Made by a program: the position numbers and the translations under genes. Below are positions 41,092 through 50,770 of a stretch of DNA of 64,000 nt, piece by piece (position 1 is the stretch's first letter; each line of letters starts with the position of its first letter). Where the stretch lies: the NCBI RefSeq assembly GCF_000425125.1, contig NZ_KE384308.1:54838-118837 (forward strand), in the 5' to 3' direction. The notes under the pieces were generated by a model, which did no database searches, was not told where the DNA came from, and saw only the letters and a program-made list of their open reading frames with translations. Source of the stretch: Paenibacillus taiwanensis DSM 18679 (GTDB lineage Bacteria > Bacillota > Bacilli > Paenibacillales > Paenibacillaceae).

Positions 41092-42066
41092 TTAGTTCAT
41101 TCCTGCCGCATATTTTAACTTTACTGGCATGTTGTGCACACACCGAATATATCGAATGGTTCCCGTACCCGCTCGCATAATGACCGAATGTGTTTCAACC
41201 CGTTGACCTGGCAAATGACGTACTCCGTTTAACAAGTCGCTATTGGTTATCCCCGTCGCCGCAAAAATAACATCCCCCGAACCTACAAGGTCTTTCATCG
41301 TGAGTAGGGCGTCCGGATTTGGAATACCCATTTTTAAGCAGCGCGCATATTGTTGTTCGTTTTCCACCATAAGTCGGCCTTGCAGCTCGCCACCGAGACA
41401 TCTCAAAGCTGCTGCTGCCAGTACACCCTCCGGCGCACCTCCTGAACCGACATACATATCCACACCACATTCAGGGATTGCTGATACAATGGCACCAGAT
41501 ACATCACCATGATCGAGTAGTTTGATCCGAACACCATTGTTTCTTAATGCCTGTACTAGGTCGCTATGCCGCTCACGCTGCAAAATCATAACTGTCAGGT
41601 CCTCCACAGATTTACCCAGTGCGTATGCTGCTTTTTCCAGTGTCACCTCAATAGGATCATCCAAGCTAACGTGTCCGGCAAGCGCAGGGCCAACTGCGAG
41701 CTTCCGCATATACATATCCGGTGCATGCAAAAACTGTCCCTTCTCCGCGATAGCAATAACCGACATTCCATTATTTAACCCGTTTGCGACAACTTCGGTG
41801 CCTTCTAATGGATCTACCGCGACATCCACCTCCGGCCCTAAGCGGCTGCCTACCTTTTCACCGATGTAAAGCATCGGGGCTTCATCCATTTCTCCTTCAC
41901 CAATGACGACGGTGCCATCAATCGGAACCGAGTCGAACATTTCGCGAATTGCACTTGTAGCAGCATGGTCTGCGCTATGCTTGTCACCCCGTCCTATCCA
42001 TGAGGCTGAAGCTAGGGCACCGGCCTCCGTAACACGCGCGATTTCCAGAGCTAGTTGACGATCCAT
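41092..42066 (-). CDS. glpX: Class II fructose-1,6-bisphosphatase
   Basis: 324 aa. GlpX signatures include IGRGDKHSADHAATSAIREMF, GTVVIGEGEMDEAPMLYIGE, the metal-binding DVAVDPLEGTEVVANG and VGSGGAPEGVLAAAALRCLGG. The enzyme removes the 1-phosphate of fructose-1,6-bisphosphate, the committed step of gluconeogenesis. It is last in the ccpN-PPDK regulatory protein-glpX run and follows the previous gene by 23 bp, with GAGGAGGGAG as ribosome binding site. The location beside gapB and ppdK supports a gluconeogenic rather than glycerol-operon role. Confidence 0.95.
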   Translation of the reverse strand: MDRQLALEIARVTEAGALASASWIGRGDKHSADHAATSAIREMFDSVPIDGTVVIGEGEMDEAPMLYIGEKVGSRLGPEVDVAVDPLEGTEVVANGLNNGMSVIAIAEKGQFLHAPDMYMRKLAVGPALAGHVSLDDPIEVTLEKAAYALGKSVEDLTVMILQRERHSDLVQALRNNGVRIKLLDHGDVSGAIVSAIPECGVDMYVGSGGAPEGVLAAAALRCLGGELQGRLMVENEQQYARCLKMGIPNPDALLTMKDLVGSGDVIFAATGITNSDLLNGVRHLPGQRVETHSVIMRAGTGTIRYIRCVHNMPVKLKYAAGMN

Positions 42067-42089
42067 CTCCAGCTCCCTCCTCTTTTCTC

Positions 42090-42893
42090 TTATGATATAA
42101 AATCCATTACGATGCCAGCCGTTTCTTCAATCGCCTTGTCTGTAATATCAATGACTGGACAACCTAAACGATCAAATAATGAGCGAGCATATTCCAGTTC
42201 CTCCACAATACGCTCTAGCGACGCATATCGCACTAATACAGGAAGTCCCATTGACTTTAACCTTTCAGAGCGAATTTTGAGGAGGTGCTCAGCGTTCATC
42301 GTTAAACCGATTATTTTATTAGAGGAAATACGGTATAAATGCTCCGGCGGTTGAATTTCAGGAACTACAGGGTAATTCACCACCTTTTTACCTTTATGCG
42401 CAAGAAATACACTTAATGGTGTCTTGGACGTTCTGGATACACCAAGCAACACGATGTCCGCCTTAAGTATGGCGTTAAGATCCTTGCCATCGTCACACTT
42501 GACGGCAAACTCAACCGCTTCCACCCGTTGAAAATAATCATCATCCAACCGATGGAGCAGTCCTGGCATACGTTTGGGCTGATCAGCAAAAGTGTCCACA
42601 AAAGCTTGGATCATAGGCCCCATTACGTCCACAGCACGAACATGCAATCGAATGGCATGCTCCTTAATTGATGCCCGTAATTCAGGTTGAACGAGTGTAT
42701 AGGCCACAAATCCGCCTGATTGTGCAACCTCTTCCATTACGATACCTAACTCTTCTTCATTACGTACATTCATATGGCGTTTAATTTTAATTTGTGGTGC
42801 TTCGAACTGACGAATGGCAGCTCGCACTACCGCTTCCGCTGTCTCTCCTACAGAATCGGATACTACCGTAATCGTATATGACGCCTTGCCCAT
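42090..42893 (-). CDS. Pyruvate, phosphate dikinase regulatory protein (bifunctional kinase/phosphorylase, DUF299)
   Basis: 267 aa. It starts SYTITVVSDSVGETAEAVVRAAIRQF and carries the P-loop-like GVSRTSKTPLSVFLAHKGKKVVNYP and the family's LHRLDDDYFQRVEAVEFAVKCDDG. These proteins inactivate PPDK by ADP-dependent phosphorylation of a Thr near the catalytic His and reactivate it by phosphorolysis. In B. subtilis the homologue YqfL is cotranscribed with ccpN and affects CcpN activity. Here it lies between ccpN and glpX and ~0.8 kb from ppdK, its expected substrate gene. The ATG follows GGGAGGAC. Confidence 0.93.
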   Translation of the reverse strand: MGKASYTITVVSDSVGETAEAVVRAAIRQFEAPQIKIKRHMNVRNEEELGIVMEEVAQSGGFVAYTLVQPELRASIKEHAIRLHVRAVDVMGPMIQAFVDTFADQPKRMPGLLHRLDDDYFQRVEAVEFAVKCDDGKDLNAILKADIVLLGVSRTSKTPLSVFLAHKGKKVVNYPVVPEIQPPEHLYRISSNKIIGLTMNAEHLLKIRSERLKSMGLPVLVRYASLERIVEELEYARSLFDRLGCPVIDITDKAIEETAGIVMDFIS

Positions 42894-42911
42894 ACACTTC
42901 TGTCCTCCCGC

Positions 42912-43565
42912 TTACTCCTGCTCTACTTTATCGAGCAGCAGCTTGATGATTGTTGTCTTCGTAATCCGGCCAACGACGCTACAGTCCGCTTCTGACGCAC
43001 CATCCGGGCAAGAAACAACCGGCAAGCTATCAACCTGATGGTGGATCATCCTGCGTGCTGCTTCCAATACAGATTGTTCCGGCGTAATCGTCACAATATT
43101 TGGCTGTCGGGTCATCACCATGCTGACCGGCATGGAGGATGCATTGGGGTTACCCAACGTCACTTTGAGCAAATCTTTACGGGAAATAACACCCGCAAGC
43201 TTCCCCTCTTCGTCTGTCACGATCAAACTCCCTATATTCTCCAAAAACAAGGTGACTACTGCATCTTGTACAGTTGTCTTTACATCGACCACAATAGGCA
43301 TGCCTTGAACTTGCCCGACCTTCATATCACGCAGAACGTAGCCATCAGACTCTTTTTTCTCCGCTTTCTCGCCGAGAAAATAGCCCACCTTTGGCTTGGC
43401 CGCGATATAATCCAGCATCACGAGTAAGGAAAGGTCCGCACGAATCGTTGGTCTACTGATGGTCAGCATCTCAGCTATTTGTTCCCCTGTAATGGGGGCA
43501 TGTTTTTTAACGATCTTAATGATCTCTAATTGTCGTGCTGTTAGTTCGATGTTGTATCCCTCCAC
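42912..43565 (-). CDS. ccpN: CcpN-type HTH-CBS repressor of gluconeogenic genes
   Basis: 217 aa. An N-terminal winged helix (IELTARQLEIIKIVKKHAPITGEQIAEMLTISRPTIRADLSLLVMLDYI) is followed by two CBS domains (~85-215) that in B. subtilis CcpN bind ATP/ADP. CcpN represses gapB, pckA and the SR1 RNA under glycolytic conditions. The start is weakly defined. The in-frame GTG at 43565 has no clear upstream Shine-Dalgarno, while a GGAGGG just inside could serve a downstream non-AUG start near ATC-Glu-Leu, matching the N-terminus of B. subtilis CcpN. Confidence 0.9.
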   Translation of the reverse strand: MEGYNIELTARQLEIIKIVKKHAPITGEQIAEMLTISRPTIRADLSLLVMLDYIAAKPKVGYFLGEKAEKKESDGYVLRDMKVGQVQGMPIVVDVKTTVQDAVVTLFLENIGSLIVTDEEGKLAGVISRKDLLKVTLGNPNASSMPVSMVMTRQPNIVTITPEQSVLEAARRMIHHQVDSLPVVSCPDGASEADCSVVGRITKTTIIKLLLDKVEQE

Positions 43566-43628
43566 TTCATGCTATATCTATCTGTTAAAGAAGAGGCACG
43601 GACTTATGAGCTACTTCTTTATGACAAG

Positions 43629-43658
43629 ATTATAGCATTCCGGATGGGATATTCGTAA
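43629..43658 (-). promoter_or_regulatory. Promoter of ccpN-regulatory protein-glpX
   Basis: On the minus strand TTACGA (43653-43658) and TATAAT (43629-43634) are 18 bp apart. The -35 overlaps the nested inverted repeat. Confidence 0.5.
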
Positions 43659-43698
43659 CTCTCGATCTGCGCGAGTTAGCGAACATAACACCATCCGG
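43640..43698. other. Nested inverted repeats between ppdK and ccpN
   Basis: Outer 8-bp arms CCGGATGG (43640-43647) and CCATCCGG (43691-43698) enclose inner arms TTCGTAACTC (43652-43661) and GAGTTA-g-CGAA (43673-43683). The RNA would fold as two stacked helices. No T tract follows on either strand. It overlaps the ccpN -35 region. Confidence 0.6.
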
Positions 43699-43727
43699 CT
43701 GCATGTACAGTACATTTACATACCCAT

Positions 43728-46403
43728 TTAGACCGCTTGTTCTTGAAGTGTCATTTCCCACTGCATCCGTATATGGGCCTGAGCTGCCGCAATGCGAGCA
43801 ACTGGAAGTCTATATGGCGAGCAGCTTATATAATCCAATCCGACACGTTGACAGAACATAATAGACTCCACATCACCGCCGTGTTCTCCACAAATACTCG
43901 TGGTCAGCAAAGGATTTCGGGAACGGCCTTGGATGACGGCCATCTCAATCAGCTTGCCTACCCCTTCAGTATCTAATACTTGAAATGGATTGTGCGGAAG
44001 CAGCTTATTCTCTACATAATGGGTTAAAAATTTGCCTTCAGCATCATCTCGGCTGTACCCAAATGTCATCTGGGTTAAGTCGTTAGTACCAAAGGAGAAA
44101 AAGTCCGCAGACCGTGCAATCTCACCTGCTGTCAGAGCAGCACGAGGCACTTCAATCATCGTACCTACCTTATATGGACAGTTTCTTCTTTCATGTCCTA
44201 ACACTTGTTCTGCCACCTGATCAACTAATTTCCGCAGCAGATGTAATTCATTGACATGCCCTACCAGTGGAATCATAACTTGTGGCTGCACCGTGACCCC
44301 GTCACATAAACAGCGGAGGGCTGCTTGAAAAATCGCTTCGATTTGCATTTCATATATTTCAGGGAACATAATACCTAATCTACATCCGCGTTGACCTAGC
44401 ATTGGATTCGTTTCCTGCAATTCGCGGACTCTTCTGATCATCCGTTCTAACTCAGCACGTTCAGCATGGATATCGCTCTCTGAAGTGCGCATTAGCGCTA
44501 AACGCGTTGTCAATTCCTCCACATTCGGCAAAAATTCATGCAGTGGTGGATCAAGCAAGCGAATCGTGACGGGGAAGCCATCCATTTCTCGAAACATTTC
44601 TTCAAAATCATACCGCTGCATAGGCAACAATCGGTTTAACGCCACTTGCCGATCAATTTCCTTCTCGGCTAAAATCATCTGCTGCACAATCGGAACACGC
44701 ATTGGAGATAAGAACATATGCTCAGTCCGACACAATCCGATGCCCTCTGCTCCAAACTCCCGCGCTTTACGCGCATCTAGCGGGGAATCCGCATTTGCCA
44801 TTACCTTCAGGGAACGAATCTGATCTGCCCATTCCAGCATGAGCAGCAGCTCTGGGAAAATGTCCGCTTCTTTTAGCTCCAATTGACCGGGAATAACTTG
44901 ACCGCTGCCACCATCAAGCGTAAGCCAGTCACCTTCTCGAATAACGATATCGTTGGCGATAAGCTGCTGCTGTTCTTCGTCTATTTTTAGAACTTCACAA
45001 CCGCACACGCAAGGTTTGCCCATACCACGGGCAACCACTGCTGCATGGCTTGTCATGCCTCCACGGAGCGTTAAAATACCTTCAGCAGCGATAACACCGT
45101 GAATATCTTCTGGTGTCGTTTCGAGACGTACGAGAATGACGTCTTTGCCCGCGCGTTTCCATTCTTCAGCAGTGTCTGCATCAAATACGGCTTGCCCACA
45201 TGCCGCGCCTGGAGAAGCGGGCAGCCCCGTTGCGATCACAACGTGATCAGCAGTAGCTTGCAGGGAACGATGCAATAAATGGTTCAAATGCTGTACATCA
45301 ATACGCATCAAAGCTTCATCTTTTGTTATCATGCCTTCATTGACGAGGTCAACAGCCACCTTAAGCGCCGCCCTTGCATTACGCTTTGCACTTCGTGTTT
45401 GCAAGAAATACAGTTTTTCATCTTCTATAGTAAATTCAATATCTTGAATGTCTCTATAATGTTTTTCAAGCTGTGCCGCACAGGAGGATAGCTCTGCATA
45501 AACTTCGGGTAGTGCATCCTGTAGAGCTGCAATCGGTATTGGTGTTCTCGTACCACCGACAACATCTTCACCTTGTGCATTCATTAAAAATTCACCAAAC
45601 AAAACCTTTTCCCCTGTAGAGGGATTACGAGTAAACAGCACGCCTGTGCCGCTATTGCTCCCCCTATTGCCAAATACCATCGCTTGCACGTTTACGGCCG
45701 TTCCCTGATCATCTGGAATGAGATGAACTTTACGATATACTTTCGCCCTTGGACTCGACCAGGATAAAAATACAGCTTCGATTGCGCCTTGCAATTGCTC
45801 CCTTACATTTTGCGGAAATGATTTATTCGTGCGCTGCTCAATCAGTCGTTTGAATTTATGAACAAGTGTAACCAACGATTGCTCTGTCAATTGCTGATCG
45901 TCTTTACATTGCTGGAGTTGCTTCTCCTCTTGCAGCACACGTTCAAAATGAATGGCCTCGATATCGTAAACAACCGAGCCGTACATTTGGATAAGACGGC
46001 GATAACAGTCGTAAGCGAATCTCCGGTTGTTGGTTTGCTGTGCCAATCCTTCTACTGTCGCGTCGTTTAATCCTAAGTTCAAAATGGTATCCATCATACC
46101 AGGCATGGACGTGACTGAACCAGAGCGTACCGATACGAGCAGAGGACAGTCTGTACCACCGAACACTCGATTCTGTTCCTTTTCCAGTTCAGCAAGTGCA
46201 AGCTCGATCTCATCCCGTAACCCCGAGGGTAGCTGGCGGCTGTTGTTGTAATAATGTCTGCATACGTCTGTTGTGATGGTGAAACCTGGCGGAACAGGAA
46301 GTCCCGCCTTTGTCATTTCTGCAAGGTGAGCGCCTTTTCCACCCAGAAGTTCTATATGTTCTTTACCGCCATTTTGGAATGAGCTCACTCTCGATACTGT
46401 CAA
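43728..46403 (-). CDS. ppdK: Pyruvate, phosphate dikinase
   Basis: 891 aa, close to the usual ~880. The N-terminal nucleotide-binding domain (LLGGKGAHLAEMTKAGLPVPPGFTI) is followed by the swivelling domain with the phosphorylated His in LRGGMTSHAAVVARGMGKPCVCG (Thr and Ser beside it are regulatory positions), and the PEP/pyruvate TIM barrel with GIGLCRTEHMF, MLGQRGCRLG and the catalytic Cys region SICGEHGGD. It interconverts pyruvate+ATP+Pi and PEP+AMP+PPi. It begins with TTG at 46403, overlapping the stop of the SR1P-like gene (TTGA), with GAGGGGAG upstream, so translation is coupled. Confidence 0.95.
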   Translation of the reverse strand: MTVSRVSSFQNGGKEHIELLGGKGAHLAEMTKAGLPVPPGFTITTDVCRHYYNNSRQLPSGLRDEIELALAELEKEQNRVFGGTDCPLLVSVRSGSVTSMPGMMDTILNLGLNDATVEGLAQQTNNRRFAYDCYRRLIQMYGSVVYDIEAIHFERVLQEEKQLQQCKDDQQLTEQSLVTLVHKFKRLIEQRTNKSFPQNVREQLQGAIEAVFLSWSSPRAKVYRKVHLIPDDQGTAVNVQAMVFGNRGSNSGTGVLFTRNPSTGEKVLFGEFLMNAQGEDVVGGTRTPIPIAALQDALPEVYAELSSCAAQLEKHYRDIQDIEFTIEDEKLYFLQTRSAKRNARAALKVAVDLVNEGMITKDEALMRIDVQHLNHLLHRSLQATADHVVIATGLPASPGAACGQAVFDADTAEEWKRAGKDVILVRLETTPEDIHGVIAAEGILTLRGGMTSHAAVVARGMGKPCVCGCEVLKIDEEQQQLIANDIVIREGDWLTLDGGSGQVIPGQLELKEADIFPELLLMLEWADQIRSLKVMANADSPLDARKAREFGAEGIGLCRTEHMFLSPMRVPIVQQMILAEKEIDRQVALNRLLPMQRYDFEEMFREMDGFPVTIRLLDPPLHEFLPNVEELTTRLALMRTSESDIHAERAELERMIRRVRELQETNPMLGQRGCRLGIMFPEIYEMQIEAIFQAALRCLCDGVTVQPQVMIPLVGHVNELHLLRKLVDQVAEQVLGHERRNCPYKVGTMIEVPRAALTAGEIARSADFFSFGTNDLTQMTFGYSRDDAEGKFLTHYVENKLLPHNPFQVLDTEGVGKLIEMAVIQGRSRNPLLTTSICGEHGGDVESIMFCQRVGLDYISCSPYRLPVARIAAAQAHIRMQWEMTLQEQAV

Positions 46404-46579
46404 GCCGAAGCACTCCCCTCTTGTTTACGACAAGCTTCTTTTTCACATACCATATATTTCGTCTTCACACTATTAGTAGGCAATGTATCGATGATGTCGT
46501 CGCAATGCCGACAAATTATCGTTCCCAGATCATTCTGTCTCACATAATCAGAAATTAATTCATTGATTTGGTCCCGCAC
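46400..46579 (-). CDS. SR1P-like GapA-binding small protein (59 aa)
   Basis: A short gene hidden between gapB and ppdK. The GTG start (46577-46579) has AAGGGGGAA seven bases upstream and overlaps the end of gapB by 25 bp; the TGA overlaps the ppdK TTG. An N-terminal helix-like extension (VRDQINELISDYVRQNDL) is followed by GTIICRHCDDIIDTLPTNS and VKTKYMVCEKEAC. This aligns without gaps to my recollection of B. subtilis SR1P (GTI-x-C-x2-C, then 16 residues to the V-x-T-x-Y-x2-C block). SR1P is a small peptide that binds GapA. In B. subtilis its RNA is repressed by CcpN. Adjacency to a gap gene strengthens the call. The 18-residue extension is unusual. Confidence 0.75.
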   Translation of the reverse strand: MRDQINELISDYVRQNDLGTIICRHCDDIIDTLPTNSVKTKYMVCEKEACRKQEGSASA

Positions 46580-47598
46580 AATAATTCCCCCTTTTCATTT
46601 TGGACGAACATATACTTTACAAAATCAGTTACACGGCATGCATAAGCCCATTCGTTGTCGTACCAGGCCAATAGTTTAGCTTGCTGTCCCGCGGTCTGAA
46701 TCGATAAACCATCTATAATTGCAGATTTGTTATTGCCAATGTAATCGGAAGATACAAGGGGTTCTTCGCTGTATGCTACAAAAGGCCCCAAACCTTCTTG
46801 AATCGCATTTGTAAATGCGCGCCGAATGTCCTCTTTTGTTATTTCGCAATGCAATTGTACAGTAAGATCAACCAAGGAAACATTTTGCACCGGCACTCGC
46901 AATGAGATACCTTGAATGCTCTCCGCCAGATGCGGAAGAATGTCCTTTAGTGCCTTGCCTACGCCTGTTGATGTCGGAATAATGGAGCTTCCGCACGCTC
47001 TTGCTCTGCGCCAGTCTGAGTGGGCATTGTCAAGATGCTTCTGGTCATTCGTATAAGCATGAACTGTCGTCATCCATCCCGACTGTACGCCAAATTCCTG
47101 ATCCAATACTTGCAAAAGTGGTGCTAAGCAATTAGTCGTACACGATGCAGTGGAAATGAGCGCGTGATGTTCGGGGTCGTAAGTATGTTCATTGACTCCC
47201 ATCACAATCGTGCAATCCAGTTCTTTTCCCGGTGCCGTTACAACTACCCGCTTAGCACCTGACTGGAGATGTTTTGATGCTTCTGAACGGCTTTTAAATT
47301 TGCCTGTTGCATCAACCACAACGTCGATTCCATACGTTTGCCAAGGCAGCAACTCCGGGTTACGTTCATTAACAATAGGAATTCGGTGTCCGCGAATCAT
47401 GATGGAATGATCATCAAACTTAATGTCCTCGCCCCACCGCCCGTGAATCGAATCATACTTTAATAGATGTGCTAATTGATCGGGTGAACATGAAGAATTA
47501 ATAAGGCCGATAGAAGTCCCATCTCCATGAATAAACATGCTGCGTATAACCAACCTGCCAATTCTTCCCGTTCCGCTGACACCGAGTCGTTTATGCAT
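46555..47598 (-). CDS. gapB: Gluconeogenic glyceraldehyde-3-phosphate dehydrogenase (GapB type)
   Basis: 347 aa. Rossmann motif VSGTGRIGRLVIRS, catalytic STASCTTNCLAPL (Cys ~155), MTTVHAYTNDQKHLDNAHSDWRRARA and C-terminal AWYDNEWAYACRV. After the second strand it reads GLINSSCSPDQLAHLLKYDSIHGRW, like B. subtilis GapB (INAS), and lacks the Asp of NAD-specific GapA, which suggests NADP preference and a gluconeogenic direction. ATG follows AAAGGAGG. It leads the gapB-SR1P-like-ppdK operon and is a predicted CcpN target. The nucleotide preference is inferred. Confidence 0.92.
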   Translation of the reverse strand: MHKRLGVSGTGRIGRLVIRSMFIHGDGTSIGLINSSCSPDQLAHLLKYDSIHGRWGEDIKFDDHSIMIRGHRIPIVNERNPELLPWQTYGIDVVVDATGKFKSRSEASKHLQSGAKRVVVTAPGKELDCTIVMGVNEHTYDPEHHALISTASCTTNCLAPLLQVLDQEFGVQSGWMTTVHAYTNDQKHLDNAHSDWRRARACGSSIIPTSTGVGKALKDILPHLAESIQGISLRVPVQNVSLVDLTVQLHCEITKEDIRRAFTNAIQEGLGPFVAYSEEPLVSSDYIGNNKSAIIDGLSIQTAGQQAKLLAWYDNEWAYACRVTDFVKYMFVQNEKGELLCGTKSMN

Positions 47599-47666
47599 AT
47601 ATTGTTAGAACCTCCTTTGCTCTGTTTATATATTACGTCATATTTAACGACATTTCAATAAGTAAT

Positions 47667-47713
47667 ACACACTATTTAATAATTTATTTTCGCTTACATG
47701 CGATAAAGTGTGT
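47667..47713. promoter_or_regulatory. Inverted repeat ACACACT/AGTGTGT in the gapB upstream region
   Basis: Perfect 7-bp arms (47667-47673 and 47707-47713) extend with near matches and lie 70-115 bp upstream of gapB. Nearer the gene the minus strand reads TATGACGTAAT, agreeing at 9 of 11 positions with the published CcpN consensus form TRTGHYATAYW as I recall it. The operator role is inference. Confidence 0.35.
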
Positions 47714-47906
47714 GTTATAGAAATTCAAACGATTATATAGTACACATTATATATAAATGAAATCGATTACATGCCAACATTCCAAAAAGTTTAATCTCAA
47801 CTGAATGAGTTGGGTTATACAATAGCCAAGATACATAAGACAAACCTTTCTACACATAAAGTAAGGTAAATAGTTCTGCCACAATATGAAATGGAGGAAG
47901 CAGCTT

Positions 47907-48167
47907 ATGCCCTTGCCCTGGAAAAAAAGAAATGATGAATTTGTTGTCATTATCGTGCCTGTATCTGCGATTAAACAAATGATTATGATTGACTTTATAG
48001 GTAGCTCTGCCTTATTTATCATCATAAAGAAGACGATGTACTCTGATCCAGCCGCTTTTGTCGGCAGCTGGTTATTTCCCCCTTTGGTCAAATTTATTTT
48101 AAAAAGGATAGATGCTCAACACCTGCACACAGCAAAAAGGAGACGGCTTATATCCGTCCCCTCTTAG
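47907..48167 (+). CDS. Small hydrophobic hypothetical protein (86 aa)
   Basis: The ATG at 47907 has an excellent GGAGGAAG six bases upstream. The protein begins MPLPWKKRNDEFVVIIVPVS, has one or two hydrophobic stretches (~13-45 and ~58-66) and a basic tail, like a small membrane protein. The 3' end overlaps the terminator of the opposing MATE gene, so transcripts from both strands share 30 bp. No family recognised. The strong ribosome binding site is the main support. Confidence 0.45.
   Translation: MPLPWKKRNDEFVVIIVPVSAIKQMIMIDFIGSSALFIIIKKTMYSDPAAFVGSWLFPPLVKFILKRIDAQHLHTAKRRRLISVPS
48134..48162 (-). terminator. Terminator after the MATE gene
   Basis: On the minus strand AGGGGACGG pairs with CCGTCTCCT around ATATAAG, followed by TTTTTG. 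Confidence 0.8.
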
Positions 48168-48194
48168 GCTGCTTCATACTCTATTTAATGCTAT

Positions 48195-49556
48195 TTAATT
48201 CCCTAATAGTCCTCGTTTAGCACGCCGTTCAATAACGCCGAGACGAACATACAACCCAACCGCCCCGAATGCCAATCCCGTAATTAATCCAATCCAATAA
48301 CCATAAGCACCTAGAGATGTCCAAGCTGAGAGCGCGAACCCGATAGGCAAGCCAATGACCCAATAAGAGACAAAGGCAACGATAAATACGATGTTAACAT
48401 CTTTATAACCACGCAACGTTCCTTGAACAGGAGCTGCTATCGCATCTGACAGTTGGAAAAAGATTGCATACATCAAAAAAGTTTCGGTCATCGCCTTGAC
48501 TGTGGAATCATTAGTGTACATAGCCGCTACATTAGAATGGAATATAACTAGGAATACCGCACAAAGTCCAGCAAGTCCAATGGCTGAAAAGACACCTAAT
48601 CTAGCATACTGCTTGGCATCCTCATATCGTTTGGCCCCTACTTCAAAGCCGATCATAATCGTTAATGACATCGCAATGCTGAGGGGGAGCATGTACAATA
48701 AAGATGCAAAGTTTAATGCTGATTGATGGGAAGCAATCGTAACTGTATCGTATCCGCTCATCAATAGCGTGACCATTGAAAATACACTGACTTCAAAGAA
48801 AATCGACAAGCCGATTGGCAAACCAATGCGGAGCACTTCCTTCCATTGCGCAAGAGATACTTTCTCTAATCGTCGAAACATGCCCAAATCCTGCATCATC
48901 GTGTTACGCTTCATAAATAGAATAGCCACACTTAAAATGATGATATACGTAATTGCTGTAGCAAATCCAGAGCCAACGCCACCCAATCTTGGCATCCCAA
49001 ACTTCCCGAAAATAAAAACATAGTTCAACATAACGTTAATCGGAAAAGACAACAGCGTAATAAACATTGTGACACGAGTGAGACCAAGTCCATCAATAGT
49101 CGCACGTAAAACTGTATAAATAAATACGGGAATAACACCGATACCGATAGCACTTAGGAACTGCTTAGCGACACGGCTTACCTCTGGCTCAAGTTTCATT
49201 CGATCAATCAGAGGATCCACAGCAAAAAAACCTATGATTATAACACCAATACCTATTAAAATCGATAAGTAAGCAGCTTGAATAACGCTTGATGCGATTT
49301 TGTCACGCTGCTTTGCTCCCACATATTGGGCCACTATTGGGGTAACCGCTAGAAATATGCCGCTTAGTCCTGTATATATTGGAACCCAATAACTCGTAGC
49401 AATGGCGACACCTGCCAAGTTCTCCTTATTAAAATGACCAGACATGACTGTATCAAAGAAAGTCATAAGCTGCAATGCAACTTGAGTCACAAATATAGGA
49501 AGTAAAATATAAAGCAACTGCTGGAATTTCTGTTTCTTCGAGTACGTTTGTTTCAT
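48195..49556 (-). CDS. MATE-family multidrug/Na+ efflux transporter
   Basis: 453 aa with twelve membrane helices and the MatE duplicated fold: the first half begins LLYILLPIFVTQVALQLMTFFDTVMSGHF and the second VLRIGLPIGLSIFFEVSVFSMVTLL. This places it in the NorM-like subgroup. These transporters export cationic drugs or metabolites against Na+ or H+ gradients. It is monocistronic, with a terminator directly after it. Substrates are not predictable. Confidence 0.93.
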   Translation of the reverse strand: MKQTYSKKQKFQQLLYILLPIFVTQVALQLMTFFDTVMSGHFNKENLAGVAIATSYWVPIYTGLSGIFLAVTPIVAQYVGAKQRDKIASSVIQAAYLSILIGIGVIIIGFFAVDPLIDRMKLEPEVSRVAKQFLSAIGIGVIPVFIYTVLRATIDGLGLTRVTMFITLLSFPINVMLNYVFIFGKFGMPRLGGVGSGFATAITYIIILSVAILFMKRNTMMQDLGMFRRLEKVSLAQWKEVLRIGLPIGLSIFFEVSVFSMVTLLMSGYDTVTIASHQSALNFASLLYMLPLSIAMSLTIMIGFEVGAKRYEDAKQYARLGVFSAIGLAGLCAVFLVIFHSNVAAMYTNDSTVKAMTETFLMYAIFFQLSDAIAAPVQGTLRGYKDVNIVFIVAFVSYWVIGLPIGFALSAWTSLGAYGYWIGLITGLAFGAVGLYVRLGVIERRAKRGLLGN

Positions 49557-49699
49557 GACATGCTTCGCAACCTCTCATCGTAATCTGACTGTACTAAGTG
49601 TATACGTTACATCTGGAAAAGGAAACCGTCAAACCTTTTTTGATATGGTAAAATGAAGAGAAGCAATACATGATAAGTAGATAAAGGAGTAAGCTGAAG

Positions 49700-50770
49700 A
49701 TGACGATTCAGAAACAAAAAGACCGTGCACTCTTGGAACAGAAGCTTCCAACGATGCCTTGGTATATTCAACAATATATGGAGTACAAGCTGCCTGACTT
49801 ATCCCCTTCTACTTTGCTCGAATACATACGTGATTATGAGATTTTTCTAGGATGGCTAATTTCCGAAGGGATTAGTGAAGGGCCTTTGCTGAAAGATGTT
49901 ACTTTGCTGCAACTGGAGACGTTGCGAATGGACCACATTACGGCTTATCGGATTTACTTAACCACCTATAAAAATCAAAAGAACAGCCGTATTACGATAT
50001 CTCGTAAGCTGTCCTCAATGAGATCGTTATTTCACTACTTAAGCCAGATAGCGGAGGATGAGCATTTGTACCCTCTGCTGAAACGTAACGTAATGGCGAA
50101 GATTGAGATTAAACGGGTCCATAAGCCTAAAGATAGCGCTGCAAAGTTAAAAGGAAAGCTATTGGAGGAAGAAGAAATTGAGGCGTTTATACACTATATA
50201 CGTGAAGGTTATGCTGCAGATGTTGCATCAAACAAGCAAGCATTGTATGCACACCAGTTAAATGCAGCACGAGATGCTGCAATCGCCAGCTTGATCTTAA
50301 ACTCAGGGCTGCGTGTCAGTGAAGTAGTGAATTTGAATATCGACGACGTTGACATGAATCATAAGCTGATCTATGTTTTCCGTAAAGGTCATAATGATGA
50401 GACTTTTAAGACCCCAGTCTATTATCGGGAACGGGCTAAAGATCATCTTGAAGTATACCTGCAACTGCGTAATACCCGTTATCATGCGCCGAAGCGAGAA
50501 AAGGCTTTGTTTCTGGCCATTAAAAATGGGGAGCAAGAAGGCAACCGGATGACCAAGCGGGCTATGCAGCAAATGGTGCTCAAATACGCGAAGCGGTTCG
50601 GCAAGCCTGCCTTGACAATTCATAAGTTACGCCACTCATTTGCTACTGACTATTATTTGCAAAATGATATTTATAAGACTAAAGAACAGCTAGGACATGC
50701 ATCAACTGAAACAACTGAAATCTATGCGCATTTGACAGACAAAACAATGTCTGAAGCGATCGATCGGTAG
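49700..50770 (+). CDS. XerS-like tyrosine recombinase
   Basis: 356 aa, the same length as streptococcal XerS, with its characteristic N-terminus (LPTMPWYIQQYMEYKLPDLSPSTLLEYIRDYEIFLGWL) and NVMAKIEIKR linker. The catalytic residues are Arg in LNSGLRVSEVVNL, Lys in FRKGHNDETFKTP, His-x-x-Arg in IHKLRHSFAT, His in LGHAST and Tyr in TEIYAHLT. XerS works alone in Streptococcus to resolve chromosome dimers at difSL, next to its gene. A dif-like site lies ~140 bp past the stop here. Many Bacillales carry XerS-like paralogues beside XerC/XerD, so the function here may differ. ATG follows AAAGGAG. Confidence 0.85.
   Translation: MTIQKQKDRALLEQKLPTMPWYIQQYMEYKLPDLSPSTLLEYIRDYEIFLGWLISEGISEGPLLKDVTLLQLETLRMDHITAYRIYLTTYKNQKNSRITISRKLSSMRSLFHYLSQIAEDEHLYPLLKRNVMAKIEIKRVHKPKDSAAKLKGKLLEEEEIEAFIHYIREGYAADVASNKQALYAHQLNAARDAAIASLILNSGLRVSEVVNLNIDDVDMNHKLIYVFRKGHNDETFKTPVYYRERAKDHLEVYLQLRNTRYHAPKREKALFLAIKNGEQEGNRMTKRAMQQMVLKYAKRFGKPALTIHKLRHSFATDYYLQNDIYKTKEQLGHASTETTEIYAHLTDKTMSEAIDR

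Follow-up and report, generated by a model that had tools for sequence, protein, structure and literature searches.

The closest described relative of the gene reported here is SR1P of Bacillus subtilis (Pfam family PF13790), a protein of 39 amino acids whose reading frame lies on SR1, a small RNA of dual function. SR1 lies between the pdh genes and the convergent speA gene, its RNA base-pairs with ahrC and kinA mRNA, and SR1P raises the interaction between GapA and RNase J1; gapB, pckA and sr1 are separate loci in B. subtilis. Here we describe an SR1P-family gene in Paenibacillus taiwanensis DSM 18679 that lies between gapB, encoding a second glyceraldehyde-3-phosphate dehydrogenase (GAPDH), and ppdK, encoding pyruvate phosphate dikinase (PPDK). 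The DNA analysed, hereafter the window, is a stretch of 64,000 nucleotides (contig NZ_KE384308.1, positions 54,838 to 118,837). We consider it fairly probable that SR1P is here translated together with the other genes of a gluconeogenic operon under CcpN repression, and that it acts on GapA as it does in B. subtilis.

PMC8152036 states that SR1 is repressed by CcpN, that SR1P binds GapA, and that GapA residue K332 is decisive for SR1P binding. It also describes SR7P, a small enolase-binding protein of B. subtilis that serves as an adaptor between a glycolytic enzyme and RNA decay and whose homologues are reported in Bacillus only; SR7P and SR1P have different partners and a similar kind of role. 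According to PMC8501984, SR1 RNA is reported from Bacillus and Geobacillus only, and in B. subtilis CcpN represses gapB and pckA (PMC7028823). Similarly to these CcpN targets, our locus combines a GapB-type enzyme with a CcpN-like regulator and an operator-like box, but here SR1P and ppdK follow gapB. The window protein shares with B. subtilis SR1P the core and its cysteine pattern, the tie to CcpN and gluconeogenesis, and the presence in the cell of a GapA with a K332-type end. The two differ in that the B. subtilis protein starts at the core, while that of the window carries an 18-residue extension (usual in the order Paenibacillales; the Pfam family does not require a start at the core), and in that the window gene overlaps gapB and ppdK and does not lie beside speA.

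The original prediction, made from the DNA letters alone, had proposed a hidden SR1P-like gene of 59 codons with a GTG start, and the frame is confirmed as a real member of the SR1P family. Pfam SR1P matches it with an E-value of 1.3e-7 and 32.1 bits, over the curated cut-off of 26, and profile positions 2-37 correspond to residues 19-54, two stretches of equal length, in agreement with the claimed gap-free alignment of the core. The family core G-x-[IVL]-x-C-x2-C ... V ... Y-x2-C is present. Across 118 SR1P sequences C23 and C26 never vary, and 90% or more of the sequences have Y42, C45 and C50; all 31 order sequences of A2 match SR1P at E 0.01 or better. The gene is the sole SR1P match in its own genome, both with Pfam and with our own profile A1, and NCBIfam gave sub-threshold noise only on this frame. 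Compared with the closest relative (G003, locus L069), the gene shows nine nucleotide differences, all of them synonymous third-position changes, with a synonymous substitution rate (dS) of about 0.30, or 0.37 when the part overlapping gapB is set aside; if either other frame of this strand were the coding one, eight of nine and nine of nine changed codons, respectively, would specify a different residue. For G016 and G017, next in closeness, the non-synonymous rate (dN) is 0.09-0.12 and dS exceeds 1.6, which is close to saturation or beyond it. The frame is thus kept across relatives and is under purifying selection.

In G016 and G017 an ATG with AGGAGGT stands exactly at the position of the window GTG, which, together with the substitution pattern against G003, shows that the predicted 18-residue N-terminal extension is real. 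The extension is likewise 18 residues long in L082 and L084 and 19 in L093 and L095, all of them ATG-started, and in most other members of the order the start lies some 8 to 18 codons ahead of the core (2 in L094); start codons outside the window were picked by a script favouring ATG and Shine-Dalgarno matches. The start is preceded by AAAAGGGGG-N7-GTG, and L082 and L084 have AGGAGGT at the same site. The Shine-Dalgarno sequence that had been called ideal does exist, but the adjective slightly overstates it, as AAAGGGGG differs from AAAGGAGG at one position. AlphaFold2 models the protein as two helices with three strands between them (predicted local distance difference test, pLDDT, 85.6), and given the four conserved cysteines we suspect a zinc site. 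A fold search with the model found no significant solved relative (Foldseek E 0.79 or worse), and its top, non-significant rows consisted largely of Fur/PerR/Zur proteins, which bind metal, and of ribosomal proteins.

The gene overlaps both of its neighbours, as had been claimed. The GTG lies 25 nt inside the gapB 3' end, and the TGA (46402-46400) shares the four nucleotides TTGA with the TTG start of ppdK (46403), the same arrangement as in L069, L082 and L084. Of 17 other gapB-SR1P loci, 16 likewise have the predicted start of SR1P within gapB, with 22-59 nt shared (22 nt seven times, 25 nt five times), and in the remaining one, L091, 77 nt separate the two; the SR1P stop shares four nucleotides, TTGA or ATGA, with the next gene in L069, L076, L082, L084, L092, L096 and L100.

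We followed the family through 60 relatives, the window's own genome included, and through 398 genomes of the class Bacilli. Pfam detects SR1P in 36 of the 60 relatives and in 145 of the 398 class genomes, and A1 in 40 of the 60, recovering the gene in G026, G031, G048 and G056 as well as several second copies that Pfam had overlooked; given such misses, the SR1P-negative class genomes may include overlooked genes. Neighbourhoods were examined at 40 of the 41 Pfam matches outside the own genome in the order (G013:C92 was left out) and, in the class, at one locus per genus for 80 of 82 positive genera. The survey of gapB-ppdK junctions that had been suggested returned gapB-SR1P-ppdK at 16 of the 40 order loci. 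A further locus reads gapB-SR1P-pckA, five read SR1P-pckA, ten lie no more than 1.5 kb from glpX or 2.6 kb from ccpN, and eight are of other kinds; 32 of 40 thus adjoin gapB/ppdK, pckA or glpX/ccpN, and none lies beside a convergent speA, the SR1-type location. Of the 80 class loci, 55 adjoin convergent speA, as SR1 does, three are near pdhD, 22 are other, and none adjoins gapB, pckA or ccpN. In these samples the window's order has the one arrangement and the remainder of the class the other, and the gapB-ppdK context recurs in order families f1, f6, f8, f9 and f10. SR1P membership in itself is not new, the peptide family being already in Pfam. What appears to be new within the literature searched is the position between gapB and ppdK, the repeated occurrence of this position in several families of the order, and the fusions described below: among the papers listed we found none on SR1P in Paenibacillus, in a gapB operon or in fusions, in a search that left the SR1P papers of 2012, 2016 and 2017 uncovered and thus leaves room for a prior mention.

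Presence of SR1P goes together with that of GapB and CcpN. Defining GapB-type as 50% or more identity to the window GapB, we found such a gene in 33 of the 60 relatives, all 33 of which also have SR1P, and 20 relatives have neither (Fisher 2e-10, kinship ignored). SR1P lies directly downstream of 25 of 35 GapB genes (coordinates compared by eye). In the class, a CcpN match (E 1e-40 or better) was present in 143 of the 145 Pfam-positive genomes (all but G100 and G120) compared with 195 of the 253 others (lists compared by eye; Fisher 1e-10, kinship ignored). The genus g6 genomes among those listed all lack a CcpN match.

Words resembling CcpN operators accompany these genes. A seed-free word count upstream of the 80 class SR1P genes found TGTGACAT, GTGACATA and TGTCATA enriched. 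We built a box profile from the seed TRTGHYATAYW, which we take to be the CcpN consensus, refined it on the 80 class loci and set the threshold at the 95% point of shuffled sequences. Of 18 regions upstream of gapB, 14 have a box over this threshold, the window among them, as do 12 of 20 further gapB regions, four of these 12 being the same box in near relatives; 18 of the 20 have SR1P nearby, and none was detected at L307 and L317. As for a CcpN-repressed promoter of SR1P, the CcpN-like box of the window overlaps the predicted gapB promoter. That promoter call is no evidence by itself, since the scan gives 13 sites against 12.3 in shuffles. Taken together, boxes, GapB co-occurrence and gene context extend the originally proposed link to CcpN and gluconeogenesis across the order. 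In the 220 nt upstream of SR1P at class loci L101-L180, AGCGCTT/CGCTTTCA is enriched beside the CcpN-like words and resembles CcpA cre sites.

The genome also holds the parts for the known SR1P mechanism, namely a GapA with a K332-type end and an RNase J family protein. Its gapA (L182) has a cggR-like gene before it and pgk after it (both neighbours recognised by eye), and the GapA end IAKKGL aligns with IASKGL of 1gd1 (K332); the C-terminus of the window GapB differs from this type. In 20 SR1P-positive genomes, inspected by eye, GapA ends in KGL in 19. We considered whether a K332-type end marks genomes that carry SR1P and rejected the idea: in a second set of 20 GAPDH proteins 14 end in KGL, and these are 13 of 13 sampled GapA-type proteins of SR1P-negative genomes plus one from G048, positive by A1. 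The remaining six are divergent GAPDHs without KGL, from five SR1P-negative genomes (G023, G024, G030 and G035 of family f1, and G041 of f6) and from the positive G025.

On these grounds we propose that SR1P is the middle gene of a gapB-SR1P-ppdK mRNA operon and not the product of a stand-alone small RNA. A CcpN-like operator in the gapB promoter region would keep the operon off in glucose and on in gluconeogenesis, and SR1P would consequently appear together with GapB and PPDK. Judging from the overlaps, ribosomes finishing gapB may restart at SR1P, and those finishing SR1P may restart at ppdK. By analogy with B. subtilis, the peptide would most likely bind the C-terminal helix of the idle glycolytic GapA and direct GapA to RNase J. 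Several observations weigh against this proposal. The KGL end is not diagnostic, as it is also found in GapA-type proteins of SR1P-negative genomes; the GapA of SR1P-positive G052 ends in RGL; and G025, with two SR1P copies, has no KGL-ended GAPDH among those examined. The window box barely exceeds the null threshold (11.2 versus 10.2), boxes over threshold are absent from 4 of the 18 gapB upstream regions, from 8 of the further 20 and from the regions upstream of the stand-alone SR1P of G002 and G010, and just one of five SR1P-pckA loci has one.

A different partner is conceivable, with SR1P serving as a small subunit or adaptor of GapB, PPDK or PckA instead of binding GapA. A physical link of this kind to GapB or PPDK, which the original prediction had raised, is hinted at by three species in which an uninterrupted reading frame holds SR1P together with PPDK (two species) or PckA (one species). 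In Paenibacillus rigui (L223) the frame downstream of gapB encodes 548 amino acids and matches both Pfam SR1P (5.4e-10) and PEPCK (4.7e-228). In G474 (L327) and G479 (L369), of one genus, gapB is followed by a stop-free frame of SR1P and PPDK, 944 and 939 codons long from stop to stop and read over the whole length in both; A1 detects the SR1P part at E 4.6e-11 and 9.3e-12, respectively, that of L327 being unreported by Pfam at E 0.01, and the two linkers have different sequences. The same gene neighbours recur, and G025 lacks the known GapA-type binding end among its examined GAPDHs. However, the neighbours also vary (ppdK, pckA, ccpN or none), and GapB is missing in 7 of the 40 SR1P-positive relatives (G002, G010, G034, G036, G037, G040 and G048), which weakens GapB as the sole partner. 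Internal starts with possible ribosome-binding sites could yield the bare enzyme from L223, where AGGAAAGGA precedes a GTG that could start PckA, and from L338/L369, the internal ATG of G479 having AAGGAG upstream; no such start was seen in the G474 frame. Fusions are also rare. In a search of the SR1P-PPDK junction against 392 order genomes, the junctions among the matches listed carry a stop between the two, and in G476, G022 and G455 a single TAG separates SR1P and PPDK in the same frame. A scan upstream of ppdK at 32 loci (28 genomes, from the junction matches plus G479) found SR1P at 24, with a weak match at one of them (L367), and none at 8, with G479, which we added to the sample, as the only fused genome of the 28. 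A further apparent fusion was rejected, that of G004 (L073), where a TAA stands between SR1P and pckA; the frames are separate in L315 and L316 too. All in all, we regard a co-encoded enzyme as an unlikely primary partner. In L367 (G839) a weak SR1P-like frame (E 0.0013; minus-strand frame 1609-1821 in reverse-complement coordinates) lies near ppdK; its end is like that of the window SR1P and the first cysteine of CxxC is missing, and it is perhaps a decaying copy.

The frame might also work mainly in cis, its translation holding ribosomes on the mRNA and setting the PPDK level while the peptide itself matters little. The recurrent gapB overlaps and the 4-nt overlaps with the next gene would suit such a role, but the strong purifying selection on the amino-acid sequence, the invariant or highly conserved cysteines and tyrosine, and the retention of SR1P at loci outside these gene pairs make it very improbable. 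That the frame is open by chance and matches SR1P by chance, as its shortness, rarer start codon and lack of an NCBIfam match over cut-off might suggest, is refuted by the substitution pattern, and the Pfam match and the recurrent presence and context in relatives speak against it as well.

The surrounding genes and signals are collected in Table 1. The CcpN-like gene bears out the claim of a ccpN next door, with a score just under the NCBIfam cut-off. An Rfam search of 42000-50000 returned no match; whether Rfam includes SR1 was not checked.

Table 1. Features of the gapB-SR1P-ppdK region, in window coordinates.
Feature	Position	Strand	Basis
SR1P-family gene, 59 codons, GTG start, TGA stop	46400..46579	(-)	Pfam PF13790 match, purifying selection, start position conserved in relatives
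SR1P core, residues 19-54: CxxC, V, YxxC, C; cysteines C23, C26, C45, C50	46418..46525	(-)	
SR1P N-terminal extension, 18 residues, predicted helix at residues 2-15	46526..46579	(-)	relatives' starts and AlphaFold2 model
SR1P ribosome-binding site AAAAGGGGG, within gapB coding end	46587..46595	(-)	direct reading
gapB, second (GapB-type) GAPDH	46555..47598	(-)	Pfam, NCBIfam; 45% identity to the genome's other GAPDH
ppdK, pyruvate phosphate dikinase, TTG start	43728..46403	(-)	TIGR01828, 1308.7 bits
ccpN-like regulator	42912..43565	(-)	NF053704, 247 bits; curated cut-off of 260 narrowly missed
PPDK/PEP (phosphoenolpyruvate) synthase regulatory protein (kinase-pyrophosphorylase family)	42090..42893	(-)	NF003742, PF03618
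glpX-type fructose-1,6-bisphosphatase	41092..42066	(-)	PF03320, 444 bits
Putative gapB promoter TTGAAA-17-TAATAT	47630..47658	(-)	consensus scan, 9/12
CcpN-like box AAATATGACGTAATATA, overlapping the -10 region	47629..47645	(-)	profile score 11.2; null 95% point 10.2

Other loci show variations in the same set of genes. L332 (G633) has two different tandem SR1P genes just upstream of ccpN (3167-3033 and 2787-2662, minus strand). A short frame lies between SR1P and ccpN in L086 (4589-5530), with counterparts in L087-L090 and L099 and with ppdK in the cluster; some copies show about 25% identity to the C-terminal part of PPDK, and Pfam gave no match on the stretch tested. In L093 and L095 (G002 and G010), genomes without GapB, SR1P stands alone and belongs to the same subfamily as that of the window (about 53% identity). 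At L307, L317 and L318 pckA directly follows gapB with no SR1P detected between them, L317 and L318 carrying second gapB copies of G013 and G018.

More speculatively, SR1P may at root be a component of the gluconeogenic set, in one branch of the Bacilli co-translated and at times covalently joined with GapB, PPDK or PckA and coupling them to GapA and RNA decay, while SR1 of Bacillus would be the gene later freed from the operon, with base-pairing added; we hold this broader scenario to be doubtful. That the peptide occurs in a second order of Bacilli, without the usual neighbours of the SR1 RNA, offers a natural separation of the peptide's job from that of the RNA. Lineages with GapA only, with GapB and with fusions provide the material for asking what SR1P binds.

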